Shown piece by piece: positions 5,595 through 10,594 of a stretch of DNA of 39,385 bases (positions are counted from its first letter, which is position 1; each line of letters opens with the position of its first letter). The translations under genes were made by a program, and so were the position numbers. This DNA is from Actinomycetota bacterium (GTDB lineage: Bacteria; Actinomycetota; Thermoleophilia; Gaiellales; Gaiellaceae): contig PMOB01000005.1 in assembly GCA_003161615.1 (NCBI GenBank), positions 320-39,704 on the forward strand, in the 5' to 3' direction. A model generated the notes under the pieces. It was given only the letters and a program-made list of their open reading frames with translations. It was not told the DNA's origin and did not search any database.

Positions 5595-7088
5595 GTGCTG
5601 CGGCGGCTCTTTCTATTCGTGCGCCTTGTGACCGTGATCGCGGTCGCCGGCGTCGCCGTCGCCGTGCTCTCGGCAGCCACAGGCGCGTCGGCATCGTCTC
5701 GTCTGAGCGTGGGGCCGGCCGGAATGGTGCGACCGCTCGGGACGGCATCGCCCCTCCGCACGAGCTCATCGCCGCCTCTACTCCAGTACTGGGGTGGCGC
5801 GGTGATGCGCACGAACACGACGTACGCGATCTTCTGGATCCCTGCCGGGTCGGCTCTGTCCTACGGCTCCAGCAACGCGGCCTACGAGCAGGGGATCTCC
5901 CAGTTCCTCACCGACGTCGGCCACGACAGCGGCACGGCGTCGAACGTCTTCGGCCTCGACACGCAGTTCTACGACACGCTCTCGGGCGGCATCACCCACA
6001 TCGCCTACAACTCGACCTTCGGTGGCTCGGTGGTCGCCACGGATCCGCTCCCGACGAAGCAGTGCAGCGAAGGCTCGGACAAGTACTGCGTGACGGACGC
6101 CCAACTCCAGGCCGAGATCCGGAGCGTCGTCGGTGCCAAGGGCTGGCCGCAGGACACGTCCCACGCGTACTTCATCTTCACGCCGGCAGGGCTCGGGAGT
6201 TGCGTCAGCGGCTCGAACGTCAGCTGCTCGTACTCCTCCTACTGCGCGTACCACGGCGCGTTCTCGAATGGGGCCACGAGCACGATCGTCTACGGCAACG
6301 AGCCGTGGCTGTACGGCCGCAGCGGCTGCGACACCGGCCAGTACCCGAACGGCGGCCAGGCGGATCCGACGATCAACGTTCTCAGTCACGAATTCAGCGA
6401 GGCGATTACCGATCCGGTGCCCAACTACGGCTGGGCCGACGCGAGCGGCTCGGAGATCGGGGACAAGTGCGCGTGGACGTTCGGGACGTTCAGCGGCTCG
6501 AAGGGAGCCGAGTACAACCAGACGATCAACGGCCACCACTACTTCCTCCAGCAGGAGTTCGACAACGCGAGCGACGCGTGTCAGTTGCGCGCAGCGGCGG
6601 CGCCGGTCGTCGCTCCGGCGATCACCTCCTTCTCGCCGGCGAGCGCGAAGGACGGAGCGCAGGTGAAGATCAACGGCAGCGGCTTCACCGGCGCGACTGC
6701 CGTGAAGTTCAATGGGATTAGCGCGAGCTTCTCCGTCACGTCCGGCGCACAGATCCAGGCGACGGTGCCGACGGGCGCGACGAGCGGGACGATCACGGTG
6801 ACCGCGCCGGCGGGCACGGCCACGAGCTCGACGCCGTTCCTCGTGCTGCCGACGGTGACCGCATTCACTCCCGCAAAGGGCAAGGTCGGGATCAGCGTGG
6901 TGATCACCGGCAGCGGCTTCACGGGCGCGACCTCGGTGACGTTCAACAAGACCGCCACGAAGACGCTCACGGTCAACTCCGACGGCAAGATCACGGTCGC
7001 GGTGCCGACGGGCGCGACGAGCGGGACGATCTCGGTGACGACGCCGAGCGGCACCGGGGCGAGCTCCTCCACCTTCACCGTCTCGTAG
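5595..7088 (+). CDS. Secreted protein with HExxE-type motif and two IPT domains
   Basis: A 497-residue exported protein. A signal peptide spans about residues 1-33 (basic LRRLFLFVR, then a Val/Ala-rich core ending ASA). The globular part (about 60-330) contains LSHEFSEAITDP at 264-274 followed by EIGDKCAW near 287, a combination I recall from EXORDIUM/Phi-1-like and related putative metallopeptidase proteins; His265, Glu266 and Glu269 could be zinc ligands, but that is inference. Several cysteine pairs suggest disulfides outside the cell. Residues ~341-417 and ~419-497 are two IPT/TIG immunoglobulin-like domains, each with a GSGFTGAT motif. The start GTG 5595 gives the best signal peptide; no strong ribosome binding site precedes it. 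It interrupts the otherwise conserved efp-accB order, so it may be an insertion. Confidence 0.75.
   Translation: MLRRLFLFVRLVTVIAVAGVAVAVLSAATGASASSRLSVGPAGMVRPLGTASPLRTSSSPPLLQYWGGAVMRTNTTYAIFWIPAGSALSYGSSNAAYEQGISQFLTDVGHDSGTASNVFGLDTQFYDTLSGGITHIAYNSTFGGSVVATDPLPTKQCSEGSDKYCVTDAQLQAEIRSVVGAKGWPQDTSHAYFIFTPAGLGSCVSGSNVSCSYSSYCAYHGAFSNGATSTIVYGNEPWLYGRSGCDTGQYPNGGQADPTINVLSHEFSEAITDPVPNYGWADASGSEIGDKCAWTFGTFSGSKGAEYNQTINGHHYFLQQEFDNASDACQLRAAAAPVVAPAITSFSPASAKDGAQVKINGSGFTGATAVKFNGISASFSVTSGAQIQATVPTGATSGTITVTAPAGTATSSTPFLVLPTVTAFTPAKGKVGISVVITGSGFTGATSVTFNKTATKTLTVNSDGKITVAVPTGATSGTISVTTPSGTGASSSTFTVS
6765..7031 (+). repeat. In-frame duplicated IPT domain
   Basis: Two identical 30-base stretches lie at 6765-6794 and 7002-7031, exactly 237 bases (79 codons) apart, inside the two IPT domains. 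A further near-identical stretch encodes GSGFTGAT in both copies. The identity at DNA level points to a fairly recent tandem duplication of the domain or to gene conversion between copies. Confidence 0.8.
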
Positions 7089-7117: not shown

Positions 7118-7123
7118 TAGGCT
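7118..7123 (+). promoter_or_regulatory. -10 element before the carboxyltransferase-like/BCCP gene
   Basis: TAGGCT ends 6 bases before GTG 7130, matching the leaderless layout seen at many other genes here. It supports 7130 as the true start of the fusion gene. Confidence 0.45.
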
Positions 7124-7129
7124 CCGGCC

Positions 7130-8923
7130 GTGCCGTCTCTAGCCGACACGACGATTCGCCTGCTTGGCCAAGAGCCGCTTGCGGGGCGGATTCCCGCCGC
7201 TGAGCAGCTTCGGCTCGCGGAGATCCTCGACCGCGCCGGCTTCGCCTATCTCGAGGTTTCCGGAGGCGGCTGCTTCGAGTCCGCGGTCAAGCGCGGGGTG
7301 GAGAGCCCGTGGGAGCGGATCCGAGCGCTCAAGTCGCGGGTCAAGACGCCGCTAGGGCTAGCGCTGCGCGGCCGCTTCCTCGTCGGCTCCCGGCCCGTGG
7401 ACGCCGACTTTGCCCGCCGCTTCGTCGCGACCGCCGCCGAGAACGGGATCGACGTTTTCCGGCTCCATGACCCTCTCAATGACATCTCGAACCTCCGTGA
7501 AGCGGCGGAGGCGATCGTCGCCGCCGACCGCGACTTCGAGGCGGGTCTCGTGTACAGCCCGGGCCGCACCGGCGAGGTCGAGACGCTGATCGAGCGCGCC
7601 AAGATGCTCCCCGAGCTCGGCGCTGTCCGCGTCCTGCTCCACGACCCGACGGGAGGCTTGCAGCCGCATAGGGCGGAGGAACTCGTCCACGCGCTCGCGG
7701 AGGCGAGCGGACTGCCGGTCGGGATCTACGCCCAGGGCGCCGGTGGCAGTGCGCTCGCGGCCACGCTCGCGGCCGCCCGCGCCGGCGCACAGCTCATCGC
7801 CTGCGCGATCTACCCGCTCGCGTTGACCCTTCACCGCGTCTCCGGCGAGGCGCTCGCGGACGCGCTCGCGGGCGAAGGCCTCGCCTCCGGCGTCGACGTC
7901 GACGTGCTCTGGGAGGCGACGGATCTCGTCGACGAGCACATCGGCGACGAGCTCGTGACGCCGCTCGTGCCGCGGATCGCGGTTTTGGCGGCTCGCCACG
8001 ACGTTCCCGCCAGTGTCGTCGCCGGCGTCGACCAGGCGCTGCAGGCGGAAGGCGCGGGCGACCGGCTCGACGAAGTGCTCGCGGAGCTCGACCTCATCCG
8101 TTCCGAGACCGGCTCGCCGCCGCTCGCCTCTCCGATCGGACAGGTGCTCGCGTCCCAGGCGCTCATCAACGTTCTCTCGGCAAGCCGCTATCTCACGATC
8201 GTCGACGAGCTGCGCGCCCTCGTCACCGGCGCCTTCGGCACGCCACCGGCGCCGATCGATCCTGCCCTCGAGCGGGTCGTGCAGCTGACTCACGACCCGG
8301 AGTCGGAGGAGGACGTGACGCCGGCGTTCAGCGAGATCCGCGAGCGCGCCGAAGGGATGGCCGCAAGCGAGGAGGAGCTGCTCCTCCTCGGGCTCTTCGG
8401 CGAGGACGCCGAGCAGCTGCTGCGCGGCATTCGCGGCCGCGGCCGCCGGGACGACGACATGGCCACGCTCGACGAGGGCCGTGCTGAGCGGATCCGCGAG
8501 GTGGTGCGGATCGTCCAGGAATCCGGGATCGGCGAGGTGACGATCGAGGAAGAAGGCCTGCGGATCTCCGTCCGCTCGACGCCGGATGCTCCGGCCGGTG
8601 GCGGCGAGCCGTCGCTCGCGATCACCGAGCCCGATCTGCCGGCGGTCGCGCCGGTGAGCGGGAGCCTCGTCCGCGTCGAGTCGCCGATGGTCGGCACGTT
8701 CTACCGCTCGCCGCAGCCGGACGCGCCGTCGTTCGTCGAGGTCGGCGACGTCGTCGCCCCCGGTCAGACCCTTTGCATCCTCGAGGCGATGAAGCTGATG
8801 AACGAGGTCAAGGCGGACGTCGAGGGAGTCGTCCGGGCGGTTCACGTCGAGAACACCCAGCCGGTGGAGTTCGGGCAGCTGCTTTTCGAGCTCGAGCCGC
8901 TCGCGAGCCGTCCCGCGCTCTAA
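7130..8923 (+). CDS. accB: Degenerate carboxyltransferase domain fused to biotin carboxyl carrier protein (AccB)
   Basis: A 597-residue fusion. Residues ~1-430 have the fold signatures of the carboxyltransferase of pyruvate carboxylase/oxaloacetate decarboxylase alpha (DTTIR at 6-10, [25 protein letters not shown] near 110). All expected metal-site residues are changed: the Asp of LRDAHQ is Leu11, the carboxylated Lys of IKDMAG is His171, and both His of HTHD are Tyr200 and Gln202. Residues 444-597 are a complete AccB: a leading helix pair ([14 protein letters not shown]), a Pro/Ala-rich linker and a biotinyl domain with EAMKLMNE, Lys555 being the biotin site. An in-frame ATG at 8459 could give a free 154-residue AccB. 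The gene sits 4 bases before accC, so the carrier probably serves acetyl-CoA (or acyl-CoA) carboxylase; the front domain may be structural. Confidence 0.85.
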
Positions 8924-8927
8924 CGAG

Positions 8928-10292
8928 ATGTTTTCCCGTGTCCTCGTAGCGAACCGCGGCGAGATCGCCGTCCGCGTCATCCGTGCGCTCCACGAGCTCC
9001 GGATCGAGGCGGTTGCCGTCTACTCGACCGCCGACGAGGATGCCCTCCACGTCCGGCTCGCCGACCGTTCCGTTCGGATCGGCCCGCCGCCGGCTGCCGA
9101 GAGCTATCTCAACGTCGCCTCGATCGTCGCCGCGGCGAAGACGACCGGCTGCGAGGCCGTGCATCCCGGCTACGGCTTTCTGGCCGAGAACGCCGAGTTC
9201 GTCCGGATGTGCGAGGACAACGAGCTCGTCTTCATCGGCCCGACCGCCGAGGTGATGGAGCGGATGGGGGACAAGGCTCGTGCGAAGGCGGAGATGCGCG
9301 CCGCAGGCGTCCCGCTCGTGCCGGGAACAGAAGGCATCGCGGGGCCGGAGGATGCGCGAGTCGCGGCGGCGGAGCTCGGCTTCCCCGTGCTCCTCAAGGC
9401 AGCGGCGGGCGGCGGCGGCAAGGGCATGCGGCTCGTGTCGGCCCCGGAGGAGCTCCACGACGCCTACCAGCGCGCTGCCGGCGAGGCGCACGCAGCGTTC
9501 GGCGACGGCTCGCTCTACGTCGAGAAGGTGATTACGCCGGCACGGCATGTCGAGATCCAGGTTCTCTGCGACAACCACGGCCACGTCCTCACATGCGGTG
9601 AGCGCGAGTGCTCGATCCAGCGCCGCCACCAGAAGCTGATCGAGGAGTCGCCGTCGCCTGCGCTCGACGCCGAGCTGCGCGAGGAGATGGAGGCCGCGGC
9701 CGAGCGCGCCTGCGAGCACATCGGCTACCGCAACGCCGGGACGATCGAGTTCCTTGTCGGCCCGGACGGATCGTTCTCTTTCATCGAGATGAACACGCGA
9801 CTCCAGGTCGAGCATCCCGTCACCGAGCTCATCTCCTCGATCGACCTCGTCCGGGAGCAGGTGCGGATCGCGGCCGGCGAGGCGCTCGCGCACGGCGGCC
9901 GCTCCGGGCCTCGCCTCGGGCATGCGATCGAGCTGCGCATCAACGCCGAGGACCCGAGGCGCGATTTCGCGCCCGCGCCGGGAAAGATCGTGCGCTTCCG
10001 GCCGCCGCTCGGCCCCGGCGTCCGCGTCGACACCTTCGTCGAAGAGGGGACGGTCATCTCGCCGTACTACGACTCACTCATCGCCAAGGTCGTCGTTCAC
10101 GACGCGAGCCGCAAGCTTGCGATCGAGCGGTCGCTTCGCGTGCTCGGCGAGTTCGAGATCGAGGGAGTCCCCACGACGAAGGCCCTCCTCGCCGACATCC
10201 TCGCGAGCGACGAGTTCCGCAGCGGCGAGTACTCGACGGCGTTCCTCGAGGAGGCGGGCGCGCGGCTCCCCGCCCTCGCGGGCTCCGAATGA
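8928..10292 (+). CDS. accC: Biotin carboxylase subunit of acyl-CoA carboxylase
   Basis: Carboxylates the biotin of the carrier domain encoded just upstream, using ATP and bicarbonate. The ATP-grasp enzyme is full length (454 residues) with LVANRGEIAVRVIRA at the start, HPGYGFLAEN, the glycine-rich loop AAAGGGGKGMR, and EMNTRLQVEHPVTE carrying the catalytic Glu/Asn/Arg residues. No carboxyltransferase beta/alpha subunit genes (accD, accA) are in the window. The stop overlaps the next start as ATGA. Confidence 0.97.
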   Translation: MFSRVLVANRGEIAVRVIRALHELRIEAVAVYSTADEDALHVRLADRSVRIGPPPAAESYLNVASIVAAAKTTGCEAVHPGYGFLAENAEFVRMCEDNELVFIGPTAEVMERMGDKARAKAEMRAAGVPLVPGTEGIAGPEDARVAAAELGFPVLLKAAAGGGGKGMRLVSAPEELHDAYQRAAGEAHAAFGDGSLYVEKVITPARHVEIQVLCDNHGHVLTCGERECSIQRRHQKLIEESPSPALDAELREEMEAAAERACEHIGYRNAGTIEFLVGPDGSFSFIEMNTRLQVEHPVTELISSIDLVREQVRIAAGEALAHGGRSGPRLGHAIELRINAEDPRRDFAPAPGKIVRFRPPLGPGVRVDTFVEEGTVISPYYDSLIAKVVVHDASRKLAIERSLRVLGEFEIEGVPTTKALLADILASDEFRSGEYSTAFLEEAGARLPALAGSE

Positions 10293-10594
10293 CGCGCGTC
10301 CTCTCGAAGGACGAAGCCGGCTCGGTGCGGGTCAGCGAGGCGGCACTCGCGCAGATCGTCGGCGGTGCCGTCTCGTCCGTGGAGGGAGCGCGGCTGCGTA
10401 CGGGACGGCGGCGGCTCGCGCTCGAGCTCGCTGACGGCCACGTGCGGGCGGAGCTCGAGGTCGCGGTCGCGTACGGGCTTCTCCTCCAGGACGTCGCGCG
10501 CGCGGTGCAGGAACGGGTCGGCGAAGCACTCGCACGCATTTGTGGGGCCGAGGTGGACGCCGTGAACGTGAGCGTTGTGGAGCTCGTCCGGTGA
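10289..10594 (+). CDS. Asp23/Gls24 family envelope-stress protein
   Basis: A 101-residue Asp23/Gls24 (DUF322) protein: GSVRVSEAALAQIVGGAVSSVEGA is the family N-terminal motif and VAYGLLLQDVARAVQERVGEAL the central helix. Members associate with the membrane through partners and are often alkaline-stress or cell-wall linked; the exact role is unknown. The position accC-asp23-nusB is the same as in Bacillus and relatives, which strengthens the call. ATG 10289 overlaps the accC stop. Confidence 0.85.
   Translation: MTRVLSKDEAGSVRVSEAALAQIVGGAVSSVEGARLRTGRRRLALELADGHVRAELEVAVAYGLLLQDVARAVQERVGEALARICGAEVDAVNVSVVELVR

Follow-up and report, generated by a model that had tools for sequence, protein, structure and literature searches.

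In acetyl-CoA carboxylase (ACC), the enzyme of the committed step in fatty-acid synthesis, the biotin carrier, AccB or BCCP, is usually seen as a passive arm. In plants, catalytically deficient relatives without the carrier's biotin lysine, the BADC proteins, are kept inside acetyl-CoA carboxylase and are thought to be regulatory. A carboxyltransferase (CT) joined to a carrier is not new, since PycB, the beta subunit of two-subunit pyruvate carboxylase (PC), and OadA are both regularly built from a CT and a biotin domain. PycB of M. flagellatus (5ks8) is a CT followed by a biotinyl domain and has a separate biotin carboxylase as partner; in two-subunit PC a C-terminal helix of the alpha subunit docks alpha to beta (PMC5059739). 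The metal ligands of L. lactis PC (LlPC) are Asp534, carboxylated Lys703, His732 and His734, Arg606 binds pyruvate, and Thr867 and Ser870 act at biotin (PMC9581989). In R. etli PC (RePC) the T882A change alone abolishes the CT reaction (PMC5895798).

We analysed a stretch of 39,385 nucleotides (the window) from a 2.3 Mb, 95% complete genome of a Gaiella-like Thermoleophilia, whose close named GTDB relatives are Thermoleophilia and Gaiellaceae MAGs including Gaiella sp. FR_16 and Ca. Gaiellasilicea maunaloa. The window holds a gene in which a CT-like domain precedes AccB, with the following features.

7118..7123, + strand: -10-like TAGGCT of a leaderless-type promoter, 6 nt ahead of the start codon (from sequence)
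7130..8923, + strand: fused gene for a putative CT-like pseudoenzyme domain plus AccB, a single ORF of 597 aa with a GTG start
7130..8434, + strand: CT-like domain, TIM barrel and helical funnel (residues 1-435, or 1-437; structure match, PF00682 and PF02436)
7160..7162, + strand: Leu11 in place of the metal-binding Asp (LlPC Asp534); clade L in 88 rows, V in 10, I in 1; intact homologues D in 16/16
7640..7642, + strand: His171 in place of the carboxylated Lys (LlPC Lys703); clade H 69, N 23, D 4, L 3, S 1; intact K in 16/16
7727..7729, + strand: Tyr200 in place of a metal-binding His (LlPC His732); clade Y 86, H 11, F 3; intact H in 16/16
7733..7735, + strand: Gln202 in place of a metal-binding His (LlPC His734); clade Q in 100/100; intact H in 16/16
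8459..8920, + strand: complete AccB part with N-terminal helix, linker and biotinyl domain (residues 444-597; TIGR00531 at 454-589, PF00364 at 516-588)
8792..8794, + strand: biotin-accepting Lys555 in EAMKLMN (from sequence); K in 92/92 clade rows that reach the position
8928..10292, + strand: accC, biotin carboxylase of 454 aa (PRK08591, 624 bits, cutoff 597)

There is no stop between the CT part and AccB in frame 7130-8923. The initial annotation had placed the feature at 7130-8455, which fits the CT part but not the whole gene, since this ends at 8923. It had also assigned the fusion its own -10 element. This TAGGCT is real and recurs in most family members, with TA[AG]G[GC]T lying 6-9 nt ahead of the start in about 18 of the 28 homologues compared. 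At one locus (L025, G029) the 3' AccB part is out of frame, by either a sequencing error or a real frameshift. Against TIGR00531 (BCCP) the AccB part scored 124.2 bits, above the curated cutoff of 115.2, and it has the biotin motif. The fused gene scored 350 bits against NCBIfam PRK09282 (PycB), below the cutoff of 402.

Sequence and predicted structure agree with the initial annotation that the N-terminal ~430 residues have the PC/OadA carboxyltransferase fold. The best PDB chain by sequence was 5ks8_C (E 9e-54). An AlphaFold model of the fused protein (mean pLDDT 86) showed the TIM barrel and helical funnel of a CT, and its best whole-length structural match was 5ks8_D (Z 45.8). Structural alignment with VIA-align superposed the CT domain on 2nx9_A with a Z of 45.4 and an rmsd of 2.5 A over 428 residues; 1rqh was a further match (Z 43.9). 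The match spans the strands that carry the ligands, at high pLDDT.

We found that the residues of the metal site are replaced. Ligand equivalence was taken from a sequence alignment, ungapped around the ligands, with 5ks8, 2nx9, 1rqb and intact homologues. LlPC positions 534, 606, 609, 703, 732, 734, 867 and 870 map with matching spacing to 11, 80, 83, 171, 200, 202, 334 and 337, where the protein has Leu11, Arg80, Phe83, His171, Tyr200, Gln202, Ser334 and Gly337. By this comparison the four ligands, the catalytic Thr and the biotin-contact Ser are gone and the pyruvate Arg (R80) is retained. The same four ligand substitutions had been read from the single gene at the outset, and the PDB chains, the intact homologues and the LlPC spacing all agree with that reading.

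The substitutions are kept across related genomes, as a family alignment proposed with the initial annotation bears out. None of 100 alignment rows of the order (some of which are the same genome reached through two collections) and none of 80 loci from the GTDB scan alone has D11, K171 or H202. Position 334 (RePC T882, LlPC T867) is A in 58 clade rows, S in 37, Q in 2 and P in 1, against T in 16/16 intact sequences, and position 337 (LlPC Ser870) is G in all 98 clade rows that reach it, against S in 16/16. Since the substitutions hold across the 100 rows they are beyond chance. A mutation in a single genome was ruled out by the 80 GTDB loci and by the presence of the CT domain in 52 of the 61 genomes sampled from the order. 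The transferase had been called dead, and the ligands, Thr and Ser are lost clade-wide.

Against 12 relatives, dN/dS was 0.11-0.19 in the CT part and 0.10-0.26 in the biotinyl domain. One family (f4) has no CT match and is also without an orthologous AccC. This purifying selection and the strict co-retention with accC support the conclusion that the dead CT domain keeps some function. Loss of catalytic residues from a domain under purifying selection likewise supports regarding the CT domain, as judged from sequence, as a probable pseudoenzyme.

The gene occupies the accB position before accC, as first annotated. Its stop codon is separated from the accC start by 4 bases, accC is next downstream in 64/64 GTDB loci with room (of 80), and efp is upstream in 69/69 (of 80 scanned). 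The efp and CT-accB genes, which lie almost side by side in many relatives, are here separated by an ORF (5604-7088, +). Its product looks secreted, carries a pair of IPT/TIG repeats (PF01833) at its C-terminus and contains a HEFSE stretch. A small ORF after accC (10289-10594, +) sits at the position of the Asp23/YqhY-family gene of Bacillus subtilis, which is reported to affect lipid synthesis (PMC5437119).

Of the three biotin carboxylases in the genome, two are each fused to a carrier, and just one EAMK carrier stands apart from any biotin carboxylase. Because the other two biotin carboxylases bring their own, CT-AccB is the sole carrier for the stand-alone AccC. The accD/accA genes are at G000:C4. 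The plain reading is that CT-AccB would be the BCCP of the housekeeping acetyl-CoA carboxylase and would be charged by AccC. We found no other CT of the PC/OadA family in the genome, intact or not, and neither PEP carboxylase nor GTP-PEPCK; ATP-PEPCK is present.

These results set the locus apart from each of the described systems. It resembles PycB in layout, but the metal site and catalytic Thr are gone, the carrier is of the AccB type and the operon is efp-accB-accC-nusB. OadA (2nx9) and transcarboxylase 5S (1rqb) share the CT fold over ~430 residues at 28% and 25% identity, whereas here the ligands are absent and the carrier is AccB; an OadB-like partner was not identified in the CT-accB operon. 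The C-terminal part passes as AccB and precedes accC as AccB/BCCP does, with an N-terminal 435-residue non-catalytic CT added. Unlike plant BADC, the protein has an intact carrier; what is dead in it is a pyruvate-type CT. Comparison of AccC tails showed that this AccC ends with the BC fold and has no C-terminal extension like that of the alpha subunit of two-subunit PC. Docking through a PC-type alpha helix was rejected, since the helix is absent, and the docking mode of two-subunit PC is thus not transferable. CT-AccB is built like PycB and probably works like AccB.

Intact CTs occupy the same slot, pepQ-efp-[CT-accB]-accC-nusB, in families f6 and f7 of the class and f29, f39 and f49 of the phylum. 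Intact relatives scored 797 and 807 bits against PRK09282 and also passed the AccB cutoff. The initial annotation had held that homologues with intact sites and the same gene order would speak against a pseudoenzyme. Such homologues exist in other families, but they represent the ancestral state; the clade itself has no intact copy, so the pseudoenzyme status stands. Since intact-site homologues share the operon slot, the CT-AccB fusion is ancestral and catalysis was lost later. Presumably the ancestral intact CT-AccB was a carrier shared by pyruvate carboxylase and acetyl-CoA carboxylase. AccA was found in 34 of 36 genomes checked. At L089-L091, L095-L098 and L101-L103 an intact CT-AccB and AccC lie in the accB slot with AccA elsewhere, a possible shared PC/ACC carrier.

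We built a CT tree without the site columns and used an AccC tree as independent support. The order and family f5 form one clade nested in intact relatives (support 100/99 in the CT tree and 98/94 in the AccC tree), and f14 with f32 form a second (100/98 and 89/97), with the CT-tree placement of f5, f14 and f32 less certain as it involves long branches. Both trees require that CT catalysis was lost at least twice. The losses took different forms. In f14 (L113-L121) Asp and Lys are kept and both His are lost, with these positions varying freely. In f32 (L108, L122, L123) the sole change is from the carboxylated Lys to Met. Because f14 and f32 differ in the ligand lost, f32 may represent an early stage or retain activity. 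Family f5 (five rows: L086-L088, L124, L125) keeps Asp, has Ser for Lys and has lost both His. It has the most degraded CT-AccB, in which the GGATF and substrate Arg/Gln motifs are lost (R80 to H/G, Q14 to T/P), still fused and in the operon; at L088 the carrier part seems frameshifted. Two genomes of the same genus as the one studied here (L110 and L111, in G008 and G006) have a separate accB and then a CT gene with an intact D, K, H, H site, besides the dead CT-AccB.

We compared the dead and intact sets position by position. In both sets 63 positions are frozen, 15 of them with switched identity. Eight of these 15 (W44S, A47G, Q82R, N83F, F113H, A115P, M173P and H202Q) fall among the 40 positions of the barrel mouth, defined as strand ends by DSSP of the model (OR 13.8, p=1e-5, in a test that ignores phylogeny), while the barrel bottom, which served as internal control, has 0/15. 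Within the dead set 20/40 mouth positions are frozen versus 92/394 elsewhere (p=5e-4). The pocket residues R10, Q14, R80, R82, H113, D114, D172 and Q202 are invariant in the clade. This clustering argues that the pocket has been remodelled and is in use, for a ligand or the biotin arm.

On the evidence as a whole, we put the probability at roughly 0.55 that, in the order studied, a CT platform without catalytic activity, its pocket re-used, bears the sole AccB of the housekeeping acetyl-CoA carboxylase. In the proposed course of events, an ancestor would have had a pyruvate-carboxylase CT fused to AccB, with AccC as partner, in a pepQ-efp-accB-accC-nusB operon. In the ancestor of the order and f5 the CT would have lost its metal site and with it the carboxyl-transfer chemistry. 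The remaining role would be that of BCCP of the housekeeping enzyme, which AccC would charge and the separate AccD/AccA would discharge. The dead CT may have been retained as a platform on which AccB depends, holding the carriers together, perhaps by the dimerisation that CT domains undergo in PC. The remodelled pocket would bind either the biotin arm of its own carrier or a metabolite from central metabolism, making assembly or activity of the carboxylase tunable. Tentatively, the pocket could be a metabolite sensor built into the carrier, with Arg80, Gln14 and the newly acquired His113, Arg82 and Gln202 holding pyruvate, oxaloacetate, PEP or a similar anion. Such a sensor would couple fatty-acid synthesis to central carbon flux, and in this reading comparable dead CTs arose independently in another lineage of the phylum.

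The strongest alternative, which we consider rather doubtful, is that the CT is a purely structural relic with an empty pocket, on which the solubility, dimerisation or linker geometry of AccB depends. It would explain why the domain is still fused in f5, where the pocket Arg and Gln are gone, and in f14, where both His are lost, and the proximal CT may be non-catalytic in two-subunit PC as well (PMC5059739). The f5 sequences do imply that a property common to all dead CTs is more likely structural. However, an empty pocket would be expected to drift freely, whereas the mouth is more frozen than the rest of the domain and gathers the switched residues. The pocket evidence thus tips slightly towards a scaffold that also binds something, as in the platform reading.

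It is unlikely that the domain has taken up a different, metal-independent chemistry such as a decarboxylation or an aldol-type reaction. The eight invariant pocket residues would suit an active site, and the structural matches include aldolases from its superfamily. However, the top-ranking relatives of solved structure depend on metal, the proton-shuttle Thr is Ala or Ser, and position 171 varies freely among H, N, D, L and S. Continued carboxylation of pyruvate, by an altered metal site or none, is very improbable. An anaplerotic activity would be useful to a cell in which neither another CT nor PEP carboxylase was found, but the ATP-type PEPCK could supply oxaloacetate, and the domain lacks all four ligands, the Thr and the biotin-contact Ser, when T882A alone is enough to inactivate the R. 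etli enzyme (PMC5895798). Least probable of all is an artefact (a decaying pseudogene, a misassembly, or a separate AccB translated from an internal start). The first stage of this work rested on one sequence and Met444 lies at the domain boundary, but the frame runs unbroken in dozens of genomes, purifying selection is strong, and Met444 lacks conservation as a start.

Searching the open literature, a set outside which most subscription papers fall, we found no dead CT in a biotin carrier or accB fusion of this type. In its accessible part, Lombard and Moreira 2011 treats fusions and divergent CTs and not a dead CT-AccB. A fusion as such is ordinary; a conserved dead CT that evolved repeatedly did not turn up in the papers searched. 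Genes of this kind resemble PycB and OadA, and annotation by resemblance would credit these genomes with a reaction that is probably absent. Since the same slot still houses the intact ancestor, its dead descendants and one or more independent losses, what a CT contributes to the holoenzyme beyond catalysis is directly testable. Across an order of uncultured bacteria from soil and sediment, the carrier of acetyl-CoA carboxylase is joined to a large, apparently dead enzyme derived from pyruvate carboxylase, and the preservation of this dead CT points to a second, non-catalytic job.
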